A DNA stretch of 64,000 bases from Geobacter sp. AOG2 (GTDB lineage Bacteria; Desulfobacterota; Desulfuromonadia; Geobacterales; Pseudopelobacteraceae). Below, in pieces: positions 1-50,073 of the stretch (positions are counted from its first letter, which is position 1; each line of letters starts with the position of its first letter). The notes below the pieces were generated by a model that saw only the letters and a program-made list of their open reading frames with translations, did not search any database and was not told the DNA's origin. A program made the translations under genes and the position numbers. Where the stretch lies: positions 2,008,117 to 2,072,116 of the forward strand of contig NZ_BLJA01000001.1 of NCBI RefSeq assembly GCF_019972295.1. The letters run 5' to 3'.

Positions 1-915
1 CATGAAACGGTCGGGATGCCAGCGCATGACCATGAATGCGAGAAACACCACCGCAACGGCAACGGCGATCATGGCAACAGCATGTTTCAGCGCAAACCGG
101 TTCCGCGGCAGATTGAGGATCTCCCTGATGGCCCGGCTGATGATGCCGGCGCCGATATCGCGGCGCTCGTCGCCGTAGGCGATCAGGAGCGCCCGGTCAC
201 AGAGGATGTTGATCATGCGGGGAACGCCGCGGGTATAGAGGTAGATGTATTTAATGGCGTACCGGTTGAAGGAGACGGCACCGCTTTCGCCGGCCACCTC
301 CATGCGATGGCGGACATAGGCGCGGGTTTCTTCCATGCTGATCGGGCTGAGCCGGTAGCGAACGGCGATCCGCTGATTGATCTGGCGCAGTTCCGGTTTG
401 GACAGGAGGTGCTCCAGTTCCGGTTGTCCGGCAAGGATAATCTGGATCAGTTTGTCATCCTCGGTTTCCAGATTCGAGATGAGGCGAATCTGCTCCAAAG
501 TCGCCGGATCGAGGTTCTGAGCCTCGTCGATAACCAGGACAACGGTCCTGCCGTTGGTGTTCTCCTCCAGCAGAAAGCGGTTCAGGACCGCCAGGAGTTC
601 ATTGGCATAGTGGCTGCTGGCGTCGATACCGAACTCGTTGTTGATGCTGCGCAGCAACTCCACCCCGGTCAAGCTGGGGTTGAAGATCAGAGCGGTACGA
701 TAGTTCTTGTCCTGAAGCTGCCCCAGAAGGGTGCGCAATACCGTGGTCTTGCCGGTGCCTACCTCCCCGATCAGTTCAATAAAGCCGTAATGGCTGTTGA
801 TACCGTACAGGAGATGGGCGAACGCTTCCTTATGGTGCTTGCTGAGGAAAATGAAACGGGGATTGGGCGTAAGGGTAAATGGTTTTTCTTTGAATCCAAA
901 ATATTTCGTGTACAT
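1..915 (-). CDS. ExeA/GspA-type AAA ATPase, 3' end beyond window
   Basis: The minus strand is open for 305 codons and runs off the left edge, so the C-terminus is missing. The N-terminus MYTKYFGFKEKPF is the usual opening of ExeA/GspA-like AAA ATPases. A Walker A motif (GEVGTGKTT, about residues 50-58) and a Walker B motif (VLVIDEAQNL, about residues 120-130) are visible. A hydrophobic stretch near residues 280-300 is probably the membrane anchor typical of GspA. Such proteins work with a peptidoglycan-binding partner in assembling type II secretion or pilus secretins. The partner would lie beyond the edge and is not seen. The gene is divergent from epmB. Confidence 0.85.
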   Translation of the reverse strand, partial: MYTKYFGFKEKPFTLTPNPRFIFLSKHHKEAFAHLLYGINSHYGFIELIGEVGTGKTTVLRTLLGQLQDKNYRTALIFNPSLTGVELLRSINNEFGIDASSHYANELLAVLNRFLLEENTNGRTVVLVIDEAQNLDPATLEQIRLISNLETEDDKLIQIILAGQPELEHLLSKPELRQINQRIAVRYRLSPISMEETRAYVRHRMEVAGESGAVSFNRYAIKYIYLYTRGVPRMINILCDRALLIAYGDERRDIGAGIISRAIREILNLPRNRFALKHAVAMIAVAVAVVFLAFMVMRWHPDRFM

Positions 916-14597: not shown

Positions 14598-14640
14598 GGA
14601 AGACGAGAGGATCAGACGTCACTGCCACCATATTCATCGG

Positions 14641-14707
14641 GTAGGAGGCGGGATTACTCCCGCCGTCCTCCCACACCACCGTGCGTACGGTTCCGTACAC
14701 GGCGGTT
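14641..14707 (-). ncRNA. Group II intron domains V and VI
   Basis: Domain V is a 33-base hairpin whose 13-base arm ACCGCCGTGTACG pairs with CGTACGCACGGTGGT across a GAAC loop. Domain VI follows at once: GGAGG and CTCC close a stem containing GGCGGGA/TCCCGCC, with an unpaired A in CTAC that would be the branch point. Confidence 0.75.
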
Positions 14708-15118: not shown

Positions 15119-16153
15119 CTACTTCAGGGTGAAAATTGACACGATCGCACCCTCATACGTCCCGATGCCAAGATCGGTCCTGGTGGCGCCGGTCCAGGAA
15201 CACGGACGAGTTACCGTGCCGTTGTCATAGAATCCATAGGCGGTCGCCGTGCCGCCGGATACGGTAATCACCTCGGCGGCGGCCTCATGCGTACCATCAT
15301 TGGCCAGATCCGTCTTGGTGGTTCCCGTCCAGAAACAGGGAATGCTTGTGGTGCCGTTATAATAGCTTCCCGAGGTATAGACCGTACCGCCCGATACGGC
15401 AATCGAGGCTGCAGAGGCCTCATTGGTGCCGTCGCCGGGCAGGTCGGTTTTTGTTGTGCCGGCCCAATAGCAGGGAACCCTTTTCGTGCCGTCGTAATAG
15501 CTTCCGGCGGTGTAAACCGTGCCGCCTGAAACGGTTATTGCAGTTACAAGAGCACTCGTACCCGTGCCGACCGGCAGGTCGGTCTTTGTCGTGCCAGCCC
15601 AGTAGCACGAGATGTTTGTTGTCCCATTATAATAAAAGCCGGCAGTGTAAACCGTGCCGTTGGCAACATAAATTGCAGAGGCATCGGCGCGATGTGTGCC
15701 GTCGCCCGCCAAGTCGGTCCGGGTTGTGCCGGTCCAGTAGCAGGGGATGTCTTTGGTCCCATCGTTATAATAGCCGCTCGTGTAAACCGTGCCGTTGGCG
15801 ACAAAAATCCCTGTGGCGACGGCTGTGTGTGTACCGTCCCCCGCCAGGTCTATCTTTGTCGTCCCGACCCAGTAGCAGGGGATGGTTACCCCTGCGTCGT
15901 TTTTATACACCCCAGCCGTGTAAACCGTGCCGTTGACCTTTTGTGCGGCAAGCGCCATGCTGGAGTGGGTCCCATCGCCCAGATCGGTTCTGGTCGTCCC
16001 GACCCAGTAGCAGGCGACGTCCGTGGTGCCGTTACTATTGTAACCAGCCGCAACAGTCTCGCTTACCGAAGCGGTACTGCCGCCACCATCATTGCCGCAC
16101 CCGGCAATAATAAAAACAACGAGAGCAAGCAGAAAACTTTTCAAATTCAGCAT
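15119..16153 (-). CDS. Lipoprotein with seven beta-propeller-like repeats
   Basis: The 344-residue protein begins with a lipoprotein signal peptide (LALVVFIIAGC, lipobox IAG/C), so it should be anchored in the outer membrane or periplasm. The remainder is about seven repeats of 45 residues with the pattern AGxYxxGTxxxxCYWxGTTKTDLxGDGTH...IxVxxGTVYT. Seven four-stranded units suggest a seven-bladed beta-propeller. Each unit keeps one cysteine before an aromatic-Trp pair. Function is unknown. The gene lies inside a collapsed group II intron and has its own terminator, and the repeats are similar enough at DNA level to recombine. Confidence 0.75.
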   Translation of the reverse strand: MLNLKSFLLALVVFIIAGCGNDGGGSTASVSETVAAGYNSNGTTDVACYWVGTTRTDLGDGTHSSMALAAQKVNGTVYTAGVYKNDAGVTIPCYWVGTTKIDLAGDGTHTAVATGIFVANGTVYTSGYYNDGTKDIPCYWTGTTRTDLAGDGTHRADASAIYVANGTVYTAGFYYNGTTNISCYWAGTTKTDLPVGTGTSALVTAITVSGGTVYTAGSYYDGTKRVPCYWAGTTKTDLPGDGTNEASAASIAVSGGTVYTSGSYYNGTTSIPCFWTGTTKTDLANDGTHEAAAEVITVSGGTATAYGFYDNGTVTRPCSWTGATRTDLGIGTYEGAIVSIFTLK

Positions 16154-19965: not shown

Positions 19966-20093
19966 CTTTCACCTCCGTGTTGTAGTAACCCGTAACAGGT
20001 CGTCGTCGATTTGAGCTACAGCTTCTTAACAATGAACGAATCAAAAGTCAAAGATTTATTTGATTCCGGATTAGCAGGTTGTTGAAAAGCCCC

Positions 20094-20214
20094 AGGTTGT
20101 TCAAAAATAGTCAGATCGTCGCACCCGCAGAATGACCTGAGGAGGCGTAGCAGCGCTACGCCGCACGAAAGGGCTTTCGAGGATGAAGGCCTGATGGCTG
20201 TTTTTCAACAACCT
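20094..20214 (-). repeat. 121-bp palindromic element, type 1, copy A
   Basis: Both ends carry inverted AGGTTGTT(C/G)AAAAA. The centre holds GGCGTAGCAGCGCTACGCC at 20144-20162. It is inverted relative to copies B and C. It lies in the fabG-acpP gap. Confidence 0.85.
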
Positions 20215-20224
20215 CCTGGAATCG

Positions 20225-34265: not shown

Positions 34266-37517
<3,252 letters not shown>

Positions 37518-37540
37518 ATATGCATGACTCCTTCTTGTGA

Positions 37541-37867
37541 TTAGCGGAATATAAAAAAAACTGCTCCGGCAAGGCAAAAACCGGCCCAGAGATAGTTCCA
37601 GGTCAGGGTGGTGCCCATGTACAGTACGGCAAAGGGTACAAAGACCGACAGGGTGATGACCTCCTGCATGATCTTCAACTGCGCCAGGGAAAAACGGCCG
37701 TAACCCATGCGGTTGGCCGGCACCTGAATCAGATATTCAAAGAACGCGATCCCCCACGAAACCGCCACGGCGATCAGCCAGTGCCGGGTCCGCAGGTTCT
37801 TGAGGTGGGCATACCAGGCAAAGGTCATGAAGATGTTGGATAGTACCAGCAGCCCTACCGTTCTCAT
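37541..37867 (-). CDS. DUF486 small membrane protein
   Basis: The 108-residue protein has four hydrophobic helices and the DUF486 hallmarks [28 protein letters not shown] and [10 protein letters not shown]. The family resembles half of a drug/metabolite transporter; its substrate is unknown. The ATG overlaps the stop codon of the ferritin-like gene (ATGA), so translation is coupled. The longer frame upstream lies within that gene and is not used. Confidence 0.88.
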
Positions 37868-39305: not shown

Positions 39306-39414
39306 GCCGCTTTTACGCCAGCTCTGCGTAAGTCTTCAGGAGGCTCTTGTGCGGCGTAGCGCTGCTACGCCTCCGCGGCCTCCCTCGACAGCCTTGATCT
39401 GACGCAAAATCGAC
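39306..39414 (+). repeat. 109-bp palindromic element, type 2, copy D
   Basis: Ends are imperfect inverted repeats (GCCGCTTTTACGCCAG and the complement of CTGACGCAAAATCGAC). The core GGCGTAGCGCTGCTACGCC is at 39353-39371. It lies between carA and the radical SAM gene. Confidence 0.82.
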
Positions 39415-39486: not shown

Positions 39487-40608
39487 TTAGCGATACTTCT
39501 CCATCATTTCTACGAACCTTCCGAATAAATAGTGAGAATCATGGGGGCCGGGCGATGCCTCGGGGTGATGCTGCACCGAGAAGATCGGCAGGTCACAGTG
39601 ACGAATGCCTTCCACGGTCTGGTCGTTCAGATTTTCGTGTCCCAGACAGGCAACCGTGCCCAGTGAGTCCAGATCAACGGCAAAACCGTGGTTCTGGGCC
39701 GTGATCTCGACCTTGCGGGTCGCCATGTCCATGACCGGCAGATTGGAACCGTGGTTGCCGAAGGGGAGTTTCATGGTCTTGCCGCCCAGGGCCAAGCCCA
39801 ACAACTGGTGTCCGAGGCAGATGCCGAAGATCGGCTTTTTGCCGACGAGTTTACGGAGGTTCCCGATCACCCCGGTCAGTGGTTCCGGGTCGCCCGGGCC
39901 GTTGCTGAGGAAGATGCCGTCCGGGTTCATGGCCAGCACCTCTTCCGCCGGGAACGCGGCAGGCACGACGGTCACGTCGCAACCGGCATCCACGAGGCAG
40001 CGCAGGATGTTGTACTTAATGCCAAAATCGTAGGCCACCACCTTGTATTTCAGGCTGGCGGGGTCAACCGCGGCATATCCCTTCTGCAGGTCCCAGAGCC
40101 CCTCGGTCCAGTGGTACGGCTTGTCGCAACTGACGCCGCTGGCCAGGTCCAGACCGGCCATGCTGGGGACGGCCCGCGCCTTCGCCACAAGGCTCTCCCG
40201 GTCGAAATCGACCGTGGAGATGATCCCGTTCTGTGACCCCTTGTCCCGCAAATGCCTGGTCAAGGCACGGGTATCGAGCCCCTGAATGCCCACCACGCTG
40301 TTTTCCTTGAGATAGGCGTCCAGGCTCATGGTGGCGCGCCAGTTGGAATAGCAGTCCATATATTCCTTGACGATGAAGCCGGAGAGGAAAAGGCCGCGAC
40401 TCTCGATATCCTCCGGGTTGATGCCGGTATTGCCGATCTGCGGGTAGGTCATGGTGACCATCTGGCCCTTATAGGAGGGGTCGGTCAGGACCTCCTGATA
40501 GCCGCACATGGAGGTGTTGAAGACCACCTCACCCGTGGCTTCTCCGCCGGCTCCGAATGACGTACCCTCGAAAATGCGCCCGTCGGCGAGCGCAAGGACT
40601 GCTTTCAT
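39487..40608 (-). CDS. carA: Carbamoyl phosphate synthase small subunit
   Basis: The 373-residue glutamine amidotransferase subunit delivers ammonia to CarB. The nucleophile cysteine is in [15 protein letters not shown] and the His/Glu of the triad are in [14 protein letters not shown]. The N-terminal [15 protein letters not shown] is typical. It begins 46 bp after pyrC. A palindromic element follows its stop codon and the next gene is the radical SAM protein rather than carB. Confidence 0.97.
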
Positions 40609-40654: not shown

Positions 40655-41929
40655 TTACCGGGGAAAGGCTACCACGCCACCCAGAATGGTGCAGGTCGCC
40701 GCCCCTTTCATCCGCCAGCCGGCGAAGGGGGTGTTCCGCGACTTGCTGGCCAGTTTTTCCGGCTCCACCGTCCACTCGGCGGTTGGGTCGATGACGGTCA
40801 GGTCGGCCACACTGCCGATCTTAAGGCTTCCACGTGAAATGCCAATTATTTTTGAAGGGTTAATAGACATTTTTTCAACCAGTTGATTAAGGGTGAGCGT
40901 CCCTTCCTCTACCAGTTTCAGTGAGAGCGGCAACGATGTCTCCAGGCCGATGATGCCGTTTGCGGCCACATTGAACTCCACATCCTTCTCATCCAGATGG
41001 TGCGGGGCATGGTCGGTGGCAATACAGTCGATGGTGCCGTCCCTGAGTCCCTCCTTGATGGCCGCCACGTCATCCGCCTCGCGCAGCGGCGGGTTCATCT
41101 TGGCGTTGGTGTCGTAACCGCGGACCGCATCATCGGTCAGGGTGAAGTAATGGGGCGCTGTCTCGCAGGTGACCTTGACACCGCGGGCCTTGGCTTCGCG
41201 AATGAGGCGCACCGACCCCCTGGTGGAGACATGGGCGATATGGAGCGGCGAATTGGTGTACTCGGCCAGCATCACGTCCCGGGCCGTGGCGATATCCTCG
41301 GCAACCCTGGGAATCCCCTTCAGGCCCAGTTCCGTGGAGGTAAAGCCTTCGTTCATGACCCCCTCCCCCACCAGTGCCAGGTCCTCGGCATGAGAGATGA
41401 CCAGGATGCCGATGCCGCGGGCATATTCAAGGGCGCGGCGCATGAGTTCGGCGTTGGCCACCGGCCTGCCGTCGTCGGAAACCGCCACGCATCCGGCCTC
41501 TTTCAGCTCGCCCATCTCGGCCATGCGCTCGCCGCCCATGCCGTAGGTGATGCAACCGACCGGAAAGACGTTGCAAAATCCTTCTGATTTCGCCTTATTG
41601 ATGATGTAGCCGGCCACGGCCTTGTTGTCGATGACCGGCTTGGTATTGGGCATACAGGCGATGGAGGTGAAGCCGCCCGCAGCAGCAGCCCTGGTGCCGC
41701 TGACGATATCTTCCTTGTATTCCAGCCCAGGGTCGCGCAGGTGCACATGCATGTCCACCAGCCCCGGCACCACGTATTTCCCGGCGGCATCTACGGTCGC
41801 CACACCGGCCGGCGCCTTCAGGCTCTTGCCGATCTCTTTCACCAGCCCGGCTTCAACCAGCACATCCGCCACATCGTCGAACCCCTGGGAAGGATCGATC
41901 ACCCGGCCGTTCTTGATCAAAAGATTCAT
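40655..41929 (-). CDS. pyrC: Dihydroorotase
   Basis: The 424-residue amidohydrolase closes carbamoyl aspartate to dihydroorotate. Metal-binding [11 protein letters not shown], the ISHAED segment and the catalytic ATDHAPHH are present, matching the class I (long) form used with a PyrB partner. It lies between pyrB and carA. The 165-bp gap to pyrB carries a palindromic element. Confidence 0.96.
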
Positions 41930-41976: not shown

Positions 41977-42085
41977 GTCGATTTTTCGTCAGGTCAAGGC
42001 TGTCGAGGGAGGCCGCGGAGGCGTAGCAGCGCTACGCCGCACAAGGACCTCCTGAAGACTTACGCCGACCTGGCGGAAAAGCGGC
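41977..42085 (-). repeat. 109-bp palindromic element, type 2, copy E
   Basis: It is nearly identical to copy D in inverted orientation, with the core at 42020-42038. It lies between pyrB and pyrC. Confidence 0.82.
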
Positions 42086-42094
42086 TGCTTCATC

Positions 42095-43027
42095 TTACTC
42101 CAACTCGCCGCCGCACACGTGATAGAGCATGGCCATCCTCACCGCCACGCCGTTCTCCACCTGCTTAAGGACGTGGGACTGACCGCCGTCCACCACGTAG
42201 GAGGACATCTCCACGCCGCGGTTGATGGGGCCGGGGTGCATTACCACGGCGCCCGGCTTGGCCAGCTTGAGGTTTTCCGGGTTGAGCCCGAAGTAGCGGG
42301 AGTATTCGCGGGTATTGGGCATCAGGGTCTTGCCCTGGCGCTCCTGCTGGATGCGCAGCATCATGACCACATCGGCATCCTGGATGGCTTCCTTCATGGT
42401 GGCGCACACCGTGACGTTGCCCAGTCTTTCGACCGCCGGCGGCATCATGGTCGGCGGCCCGGCCAGGTAGACGTGGGACCCCATCTTGGTCAACCCCTGG
42501 ATATCGGAGCGGGCCACCCGGCTATGGGTGATGTCCCCCACGATGGCCACCTTGAGGCCGTCCAGCCGTCCATACCGGTCCTTGATGGTCAACAGGTCCA
42601 AAAGCCCCTGCGACGGATGCTCGTGGGCTCCGTCGCCGGCGTTGACGACCGAACAGCTCACCTTTTGGGCCAGATGGTAGTGGGCTCCGGAAACCGCATG
42701 GCGCATGACGATGATGTCAGGCTTCATGGCCAAAAGATTCAGAGCGGTGTCTGCCAGGGTCTCCCCCTTGGTGGCCGAGCTGGTGGAGGGGGAGATGTTG
42801 ACGGTGTCGGCGGATAGCCGCTTGGCGGCAATCTCGAAGGACGTCCGTGTGCGGGTGGATGCCTCGTAGAACAGGTTGATGATGGTCTTGCCGCGCAACG
42901 TGGGAACCTTCTTGATGTCGCGGCTGTTGATCTCCCGCATGTTTTCAGCCGTCGCCAGGAGCAGCTCGATATCTTCCCCGGTCAGATCCCTGAGCGCAAT
43001 GATATTCCTGTGTTTGAACTCTGCCAT
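42095..43027 (-). CDS. pyrB: Aspartate carbamoyltransferase catalytic subunit
   Basis: The 310-residue enzyme condenses carbamoyl phosphate and aspartate. The carbamoyl phosphate loop [13 protein letters not shown], the HPSQGLLD motif and the aspartate-binding [10 protein letters not shown] are all present. No pyrI regulatory subunit is encoded nearby, as expected in PyrR-controlled operons. It follows pyrR by 159 bp; the gap contains a palindromic element. Confidence 0.97.
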
Positions 43028-43046: not shown

Positions 43047-43167
43047 GGGTTGTTGAAAAACAGCCATCTCGCCGCCGTCCTCGAATGCCCTTTCGTGCGG
43101 CGTAGCGCTGCTACGCCTCCTCAGGGCACTCTGCGGGTGCGACGATCCGACTATTTTTGAACAACCT
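43047..43167 (+). repeat. 121-bp palindromic element, type 1, copy B
   Basis: It has the same arrangement as copy C: TTGTTGAAAAACAGCCATC at one end, the core at 43099-43117, and CTATTTTTGAACAACCT at the other. It lies between pyrR and pyrB. Confidence 0.85.
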
Positions 43168-43186
43168 GAGTTTTTCGACAACCCCA

Positions 43187-43735
<549 letters not shown>

Positions 43736-43754
43736 TTACCTTTCCGTGAGACAC

Positions 43755-43788
43755 AAAAAAAGAGCCTCACCGCGCATGCAGCAAGGCC
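43755..43788 (-). terminator. Attenuator terminator in the pyrR leader
   Basis: On the minus strand GCCTTGC and GTGAGGC close a stem with GT pairs around a TGCATGCGCG interior, followed by seven T residues. It lies between the PyrR-binding element and pyrR. Confidence 0.75.
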
Positions 43789-43823
43789 CTTCCATATATG
43801 ATTCGCGTCAGTCATCTGTGTAA

Positions 43824-43850
43824 CCCTTGCCAACCTCTCGGGCTGGATTA
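43824..43850 (-). promoter_or_regulatory. PyrR-binding element (anti-antiterminator loop)
   Basis: The minus-strand sequence TAATCCAGCCCGAGAGGTTG, continuing GCAAGGG, matches the conserved PyrR recognition loop (AUCC...GAGAGG-UU-GCAAGG) of pyr attenuators. Confidence 0.8.
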
Positions 43851-43876
43851 AAAGGTAGTCGATATGTCGTTGGATG

Positions 43877-43905
43877 AGACTAGCACTCTCCACTGCCAAG
43901 GTCAA
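43877..43905 (-). promoter_or_regulatory. Candidate sigma-70 promoter of the pyr operon
   Basis: TTGACC (43900-43905) and TAGTCT (43877-43882) are 17 bases apart on the minus strand, upstream of the PyrR element. Confidence 0.55.
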
Positions 43906-49882: not shown

Positions 49883-49898
49883 AGATCGCTCGTCTAAG

Positions 49899-50019
49899 AG
49901 GTTGTTGAAAAACAGCCATCTCGCCGCCGTCCTCGAAAGCCCTTTTGTGCGGCGTAGCGCTGCTACGCCTCCGCAAGGCTTTCTGCGGGTGCGACGATTT
50001 GACTATTTTTGAACAACCT
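49899..50019 (+). repeat. 121-bp palindromic element, type 1, copy C
   Basis: It starts AGGTTGTTGAAAAACAG and ends CTATTTTTGAACAACCT, with the core at 49951-49969. It lies between recQ and the zinc-ribbon gene. Confidence 0.87.
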
Positions 50020-50073
50020 GAGTTTTAACAGCCTGCTAAAAAATATTTATTGATCGCTGCATAGTACCACAAA

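Follow-up and report, generated by a model that had tools for sequence, protein, structure and literature searches.

PyrR is the textbook RNA antiterminator switch and is mainly known from Bacillus. What, then, averts termination when a PyrR leader stands in front of the pyrimidine genes of a Gram-negative anaerobe? We addressed this question in Geobacter sp. AOG2, in a stretch of 64,000 nucleotides (NZ_BLJA01000001.1, positions 2,008,117 to 2,072,116) that is hereafter called the window and whose own numbering is used. An initial annotation had described a promoter, a PyrR recognition loop, a terminator with a seven-T tract and then pyrR. All of these were found on the minus strand, and positions 43755-43905 comprise exactly the segment from the promoter to the T-tract. 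The features of the leader and of the operon behind it are as follows.

43877-43905, minus strand: promoter as read from the sequence, with -35 TTGACC (43905-43900), a 17 nt spacer and -10 TAGTCT (43882-43877)
43858-43755, minus strand: match to RF00515 (PyrR binding site), full model length, 45.4 bits
43825-43855, minus strand: PyrR-binding hairpin, termed anti-antiterminator in Bacillus; CCUUU/AAGG forms the lower stem, and the upper stem is capped by the pentaloop CGAGA
43824-43828, minus strand: AAGGG, resembling a Shine-Dalgarno sequence and shared in part with the hairpin 3′ strand, as AAGG belongs to the stem; start codon 8 nt downstream
43720-43815, minus strand: leader ORF, ATG to TGA, 31 codons, passing through the terminator; the stop codon TGA and the start codon of pyrR overlap (ATGA)
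43755-43793, minus strand: intrinsic terminator, 16-pair stem (43793-43758) and seven-T tract, -22.5 kcal/mol
43187-43723, minus strand: pyrR, NCBIfam NF003549 (PyrR), 238.4 bits, cut-off 138
42095-43027, minus strand: pyrB, aspartate carbamoyltransferase, NF002032, 408.6 bits, cut-off 263
40655-41929, minus strand: pyrC, dihydroorotase, TIGR00857, 450.4 bits, cut-off 279
39487-40608, minus strand: carA, carbamoyl-phosphate synthase small subunit, TIGR01368, 497.5 bits, cut-off 307
34266-37577, minus strand: carB-like ORF downstream of carA, seen in translation only

The gene order after the leader is thus pyrR-pyrB-pyrC-carA. The window PyrR exceeds the curated cut-off of the PyrR equivalog model, and its PDB relatives include 1a3c, 1non and 1ufr. 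Since a simple sigma-70 consensus scan did not pick up the window promoter, its assignment draws on conservation only: among the 121 Geobacterales leaders for which 45 nt or more of upstream sequence were available, 114 show the pattern TTGACN-16..18-TANNNT ahead of the hairpin. The terminator scan of the window leader returned one terminator, compared to 0.4 in shuffled sequences. The intergenic regions also carry repeats. An interspersed repeat of 127-141 nt lies between pyrR and pyrB (43048-43175) and again at 49893-50026 and 20086-20220; it has at least 41 matches in the genome including its own site (40 at ≥90% identity and one fragment), with 40 of 158 candidates scored. A second pair, inverted, 109 nt long and 94% identical, occupies the pyrB-pyrC gap (41977-42085) and the region behind carA (39306-39414).

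The recognition hairpin was examined by an Rfam search, which the initial annotation had proposed as a check. RF00515 matched the window element with an E-value of 4.1e-5 in 501 nt and 7.6e-5 genome-wide, although its 45.4 bits remain below the gathering threshold of 54. The recognition stem with its conserved terminal loop and the lower stem CCUUU/AAAGG of this family are present. This is the sole credible match in the genome, as the next best has an E-value of 1.1; the nine other matches, all at E 1.1 or worse, were discarded as noise, and E. coli also yields matches at that threshold. Among 141 genomes of the order, 129 carry RF00515 at E≤0.1, 15 pass the cut-off and 138 have a PyrR gene. 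Twelve genomes gave no Rfam match; nine of these were examined and have pyrR, and a pentaloop hairpin was recognizable ahead of it in all nine, the stem having diverged in eight (for example GGUA-CGAGA-UACC). The pentaloop upper stem covaries. In an alignment of 42 of the 43 distinct pentaloop hairpins (the longer one of L187 was left out), 98.0% of cells were paired and 6/6 pairs had changed on both sides. Shuffles gave on average 4.1 double-changed pairs, 3 out of 500 reached the observed number, and sliding the partners abolished pairing. Together with the terminator and pyrR, the Rfam match and the covariation lend good sequence support to the annotated PyrR-controlled attenuator in a Gram-negative anaerobe. 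Relatives named Geobacter, Geomonas, Pelotalea and others assign the window to the Geobacterales, which are Gram-negative anaerobes.

The loop itself is unusual for the family. Instead of the consensus hexaloop CNGNGA, the window has the pentaloop CGAGA, which is one base shorter. Neither this shorter loop nor the leader ORF featured in the initial annotation. To place it within the order, 142 Geobacterales loci (L001, L009-L038, L119-L229) were collected; L142, L195, L215 and L216 were dropped as they lack pyrR, leaving 138, and L227, L027, L228 and L229 as their sequences do not match the hairpin pattern, so that 134 remained. These divide into 64 pentaloop leaders (CGAGA, rarely CGUGA; 60 strictly parsed and four with a relaxed closing pair) and 70 hexaloop leaders. 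One hexaloop leader (L139) was dropped from later tests for a misplaced terminator, hence n=69 there. On the PyrR tree the loop state changes at least three times (3–5 in bootstraps), which means that the switch occurred more than once. A PyrR residue that tracks the loop type was sought and rejected, as 13 positions distinguish hexaloop f1g7 from the pentaloop family to which it belongs, and none of them splits the pentaloop f2 group from its hexaloop neighbours. By eye, Desulfuromusa (L072) has a pentaloop too.

The annotation had also hinted that such an element is unusual outside Gram-positives, which turned out to be less so than implied. RF00515 was found at E≤0.005 in 140/198 of Nitrospirota, 112/145 of Omnitrophota and 61/61 of the Bacillales-type order. 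At E≤0.001 it was found in 31/79 of NC10, 60/61 of the class Bacilli and 27/198 of the window's phylum, five of these being Geobacterales. PyrR elements are therefore common in some Gram-negative phyla and patchy in the window's own. Nor is the element tied to pyrR: in L228 (160-300; genome G017, L142/L228) a PyrR hairpin and terminator precede a carB-like ORF, with pyrR behind. After the L228 hairpin comes GTT where GTG would be expected, and a TTG stands shortly after it. A second PyrR-like gene, 54% identical (L229, genome G046), lacks a recognizable PyrR hairpin within 230 nt upstream, and the PyrR genes of Syntrophales and similar (L062-L071, L097), 59–65% identical to that of the window, have no pattern-matching hairpin close upstream. 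Among the literature matches listed, no title or opening of an abstract dealt with a PyrR leader peptide or with PyrR in Geobacter; in its section on RNA regulons, PMC3766115 states that the delta-proteobacterial lineage was left out.

The initial annotation described the elements as following the order known from Bacillus. This is correct for the layout, including the intrinsic terminator between the hairpin and the pyr genes; the Bacillus mechanism probably does not apply, as the RNA antiterminator is weak in the window and in its order. In a Bacillus-type attenuator the hairpin 3′ strand would, without PyrR, pair with the terminator 5′ arm (GGCAAGG with CCUUGCU in the window), and any leader ORF would be incidental. 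The segment that begins at the PyrR loop and ends with the terminator 5′ arm was folded, with a shuffled arm as control. The comparison of antiterminator and terminator folds that the annotation had suggested spoke largely against the Bacillus scheme. The 7-pair helix exists; at -12.6 kcal/mol it is slightly more stable than the PyrR hairpin (-11.2) and it appears in the nascent fold of the window, but it falls short of the terminator (-22.5) by 10 kcal/mol and does not out-compete it. Four of the six members of the genus, the window among them, have the complementarity GCAAGG/CCUUGC, and the other two have UCUUGC with a G-U pair.

The groups differ in the same respect. The median antiterminator and terminator energies were -24.2 and -17.6 kcal/mol in Bacillales. 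The corresponding medians, with the shuffled-arm antiterminator in brackets, were -8.0 (-8.8) and -21.7 in pentaloop Geobacterales, -10.9 (-10.0) and -21.8 in hexaloop Geobacterales, -7.1 (-7.7) and -16.0 in Omnitrophota, and -9.6 (-8.2) and -18.7 in Nitrospirota. The antiterminator was the more stable fold in 25/30 Bacillales and 23/28 Bacilli versus 3/133 Geobacterales (pentaloop 0/64, hexaloop 3/69), 0/28 Omnitrophota, 6/28 Nitrospirota, 0/19 in the rest of the window's phylum and 3/30 in NC10, a difference that is due in part to the longer linkers of Bacillales and Bacilli (medians 47 and 55.5 vs 31–40). For the named loci, the counts were 3/13 in Clostridia, 4/8 in Bacilli and 3/16 in other phyla. 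Thus, the shared protein family and element order, together with the short helix of the genus, speak for a Bacillus-type device, yet an antiterminator that in pentaloop leaders never beats the terminator and gains nothing over the shuffled-arm control makes this reading unlikely. It would also leave unexplained a conserved start codon and an open reading frame, which are described in the following.

In the window, the predicted ribosome-binding site of a short leader ORF lies within the PyrR hairpin, and the frame runs past the terminator to its stop. We found the start codon in a fixed place throughout the order. In hexaloop leaders the hairpin ends AAAG-GTG in 70/70, and the GAGG of the PyrR loop is positioned exactly 9 nt before this GTG, a normal Shine-Dalgarno distance, in 69/69; the TG of the GTG may be partly kept by an extended hairpin stem, as pairing with bases upstream would be possible in 59 and 51 of the 70. 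In the strictly parsed pentaloop leaders an ATG follows 3–12 nt behind AAGG in 59/60, and the remaining one has GTG. An early stop, with more than 8 nt still to go to the terminator arm, occurs in the leader frame of just 3/70 hexaloop and 3/64 pentaloop leaders, compared to 47/70 and 56/64 in the +1 frame and 26/70 and 22/64 in the +2 frame. The +1 frame is inflated as a control because a start codon followed by A creates TGA, and +2 is therefore the fair one. All other leader ORFs stop just before the terminator arm, inside the terminator or beyond it, and in 6/134 the stop overlaps the pyrR start as it does in the window. Choosing the start differently, such that an open one is preferred where available, gave a count biased accordingly, with early stops in 2/69 hexaloop, 2/64 pentaloop and 0/28 Omnitrophota leaders. 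In a separate test devised for the hexaloop leaders, the GTG frame was open in 68/69, compared to 45.0±3.7 in shuffles with a maximum of 55. Leaders with an early stop do exist (L187, L022, L162, L169 and L148). As a further observation, L344, L349, L351 and L357 of the window's phylum as well as L081 and L092 have an ATG directly after AAAGG, with the GAGG of the PyrR loop ahead; in L351, L357 and L092 the frame of this ATG has an early stop.

The encoded peptide is barely conserved. In 62 sister pairs, substitutions at codon positions 1, 2 and 3 numbered 53, 49 and 65 up to the terminator arm (p-value of 0.029) and 88, 94 and 105 up to the terminator end (p-value of 0.074), and indels comprised 8 multiples of three and 43 others, a number of them at alignment ends. 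With so weak a signal, peptide conservation was rejected as proof of coding. The leader ORF looks as if it were maintained for its frame and length and not for its product; low amino-acid conservation fits a ribosome that merely has to pass.

A further reading takes up the position of the stops. In Gram-negatives, Rho can act on leaders that are not translated, and an ORF ending at or beyond the terminator arm would suit a role in shielding the transcript from Rho or RNase instead of acting on the intrinsic terminator, with PyrR still hiding the Shine-Dalgarno. We regard this as highly improbable, as a strong seven-T intrinsic terminator lies exactly where the ORF stops or passes, and a Rho scheme needs none.

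To compare phyla, we used one uniform rule, evaluated against 300 dinucleotide shuffles of the linker: a leader had to have an ATG or GTG 2–16 nt behind AAGG, with its frame free of stops until at most 8 nt remain before the terminator arm. This rule was chosen after inspecting the Geobacterales, the named loci and part of the Nitrospirota and Omnitrophota loci, and it was applied unchanged to the later sets, i.e. the rest of the phylum, NC10 and Bacilli, although the NC10 locus L236 shares its genome with the earlier-inspected L101. Each phylum set consists of the best-scoring loci of its search, at most 30, and thus leans towards strong Rfam matches. Leaders could be parsed for 28/30 Nitrospirota, 28/30 Omnitrophota, 30/30 Bacillales (the order of the Anoxybacillus genome), 19/22 of the window's own phylum, 30/30 NC10 and 28/28 Bacilli. 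The named loci numbered 80, of which 41 were assigned manually to groups according to title (parsed: Bacilli 8/8, Clostridia 13/15, other 16/18); left out were 21 Geobacterales-like loci, as the genome set covers the order, and 18 without a visible hairpin before pyrR, most of them judged by pattern only.

The ORF was present in 61/64 pentaloop Geobacterales (27.1 expected), 25/28 Nitrospirota (8.1) and 28/28 Omnitrophota (8.9), and in the later sets in 16/19 of the rest of the phylum (8.2) and 28/30 of NC10 (14.7). None of the 300 shuffles reached the observed count in any of these five groups. No excess was seen in Bacillales (11/30 vs 9.7), and the ORF was at chance in the later Bacilli set (9/28 vs 9.1) and in the named Clostridia (5/13 vs 5.0). 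The named Bacilli gave 6/8 vs 4.0, reached by 46/300 shuffles, and the named loci of other phyla 12/16 vs 6.5. Hexaloop Geobacterales fail the uniform rule (19/69 vs 23.2) because their GTG start sits inside the hairpin. Restricting the test to ATG left 20/28 vs 6.2 in Nitrospirota, 25/28 vs 6.5 in Omnitrophota and 13/19 vs 6.6 in the rest of the phylum; in NC10, where many leaders have only GTG in place, the ATG-only test showed no excess (12/30 vs 8.6, reached by 37/300 shuffles). The Geobacterales leaders collapse to four pentaloop and six hexaloop similarity clusters, so that the order alone is weak evidence and the weight comes from the other phyla. With one leader per cluster, the fraction with an ORF was 0.94 vs 0.37 for Nitrospirota, Omnitrophota, the rest of the phylum and NC10 taken together (71 clusters) and 0.34 vs 0.32 for Bacilli (54 clusters).

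Across groups, the ORF and a strong antiterminator trade off, with the exception of Clostridia. The simplest mechanism is a ribosome-mediated scheme. From these sequence patterns we infer that the leader is an attenuator of pyrRBC-carA in which, as is likely, a translating ribosome and not an RNA antiterminator averts termination. Transcription would start a short distance ahead of the PyrR hairpin. At low UMP, the hairpin would not be held by PyrR, and a ribosome could bind the Shine-Dalgarno in its 3′ strand (AAGGG, 43828-43824). This ribosome would initiate the leader ORF at the ATG at 43815 and trail RNA polymerase over the terminator 5′ arm, which would allow read-through into pyrR. When UMP is high, PyrR-UMP would clamp the hairpin, with the ribosome site of the leader paired and covered; the terminator, with no trailing ribosome, would fold and transcription would stop.

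A mixture of both devices is conceivable, in which antitermination is mainly the work of the leader ribosome, assisted by a short RNA antiterminator in lineages that possess one, for example in the window's genus. The helix GGCAAGG/CCUUGCU (-12.6 kcal/mol) leaves room for such a device in the window, which carries both helix and ORF, and in Nitrospirota the 6/28 leaders with the more stable antiterminator stand alongside 25/28 leader ORFs. Pentaloop Geobacterales and Omnitrophota, however, show as groups no antiterminator above the shuffled level, and we consider the mixed device quite improbable.

The ribosome-mediated scheme has partial counterparts in known systems. In the pyr operon of Thermus strain ZO5, Van de Casteele et al. 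(J Bacteriol, 1997) reportedly proposed that a ribosome on a leader ORF prevents the terminator, that PyrR blocks its translation and that no RNA antiterminator exists, for one operon of one thermophile. This proposal shares with ours the PyrR leader, the ribosome on a leader ORF, the block of its translation by PyrR and the lack of a strong RNA antiterminator. Compared with that single operon, the ORF is found here in 226/238 leaders tested (window's phylum, Nitrospirota, Omnitrophota, NC10); features noted here beside it are the embedding of the Shine-Dalgarno, and in hexaloop Geobacterales also of the start codon, in the PyrR hairpin, and the pentaloop of one clade. In Mycobacterium smegmatis, PyrR is said to act by translational repression, hiding the ribosome site of pyrR itself (attributed to Fields and Switzer, 2007). 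The likeness lies in a PyrR hairpin that hides a Shine-Dalgarno, there pyrR's own and here that of a short leader ORF before the terminator; in the window the hairpin ends at 43825, pyrR starts at 43723 and the terminator lies between, so that it is not the pyrR site that is sequestered. The enteric pyrBI leader (pyrL) also uses a leader-ORF ribosome to prevent an intrinsic terminator before pyr genes, with polymerase pausing at low UTP as sensor and without PyrR, whereas the sensor here would be PyrR-UMP acting on ribosome access. The pyr attenuators of Bacillus subtilis have the PyrR family, recognition hairpin, terminator and downstream pyr operon in common with the window. In contrast to the strong antiterminators and missing ORF excess of Bacillales leaders, the situation here is the reverse, and Bacillales usually have two or more PyrR elements per genome compared to one here.

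Taken further, the comparison leads us to favour, with some reservation, the existence of two or more classes of PyrR attenuator: one with an RNA antiterminator in Bacilli, and one with a ribosome on a short leader ORF in Geobacterales, Nitrospirota, Omnitrophota, NC10 and others, with the Shine-Dalgarno within the recognition hairpin and, in hexaloop Geobacterales, the start codon too. One recognition module would thus drive two kinds of antitermination, of which the ribosome-coupled kind may have the wider distribution outside Bacilli. Clostridia fit neither class, with the ORF at chance and the antiterminator more stable in just 3/13. If the leader ORF is the working element in these other phyla, the textbook RNA antiterminator scheme is one of two designs, and a scheme reportedly put forward for just one Thermus operon would turn out to be general. 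How a regulator passes between RNA-fold and ribosome-coupled devices could then be followed in one RNA-binding protein as a natural experiment, and a single mutation of the leader start codon is predicted to abolish pyr expression.

Elsewhere in the window, two further elements were observed. A match to the group II intron family RF00029 lies on the minus strand at 14636-14707 (46.9 bits, cut-off 40). At 15298-15837, four direct repeats of 135 nt are arranged in tandem, and the other three are 62–75% identical to the reference copy.
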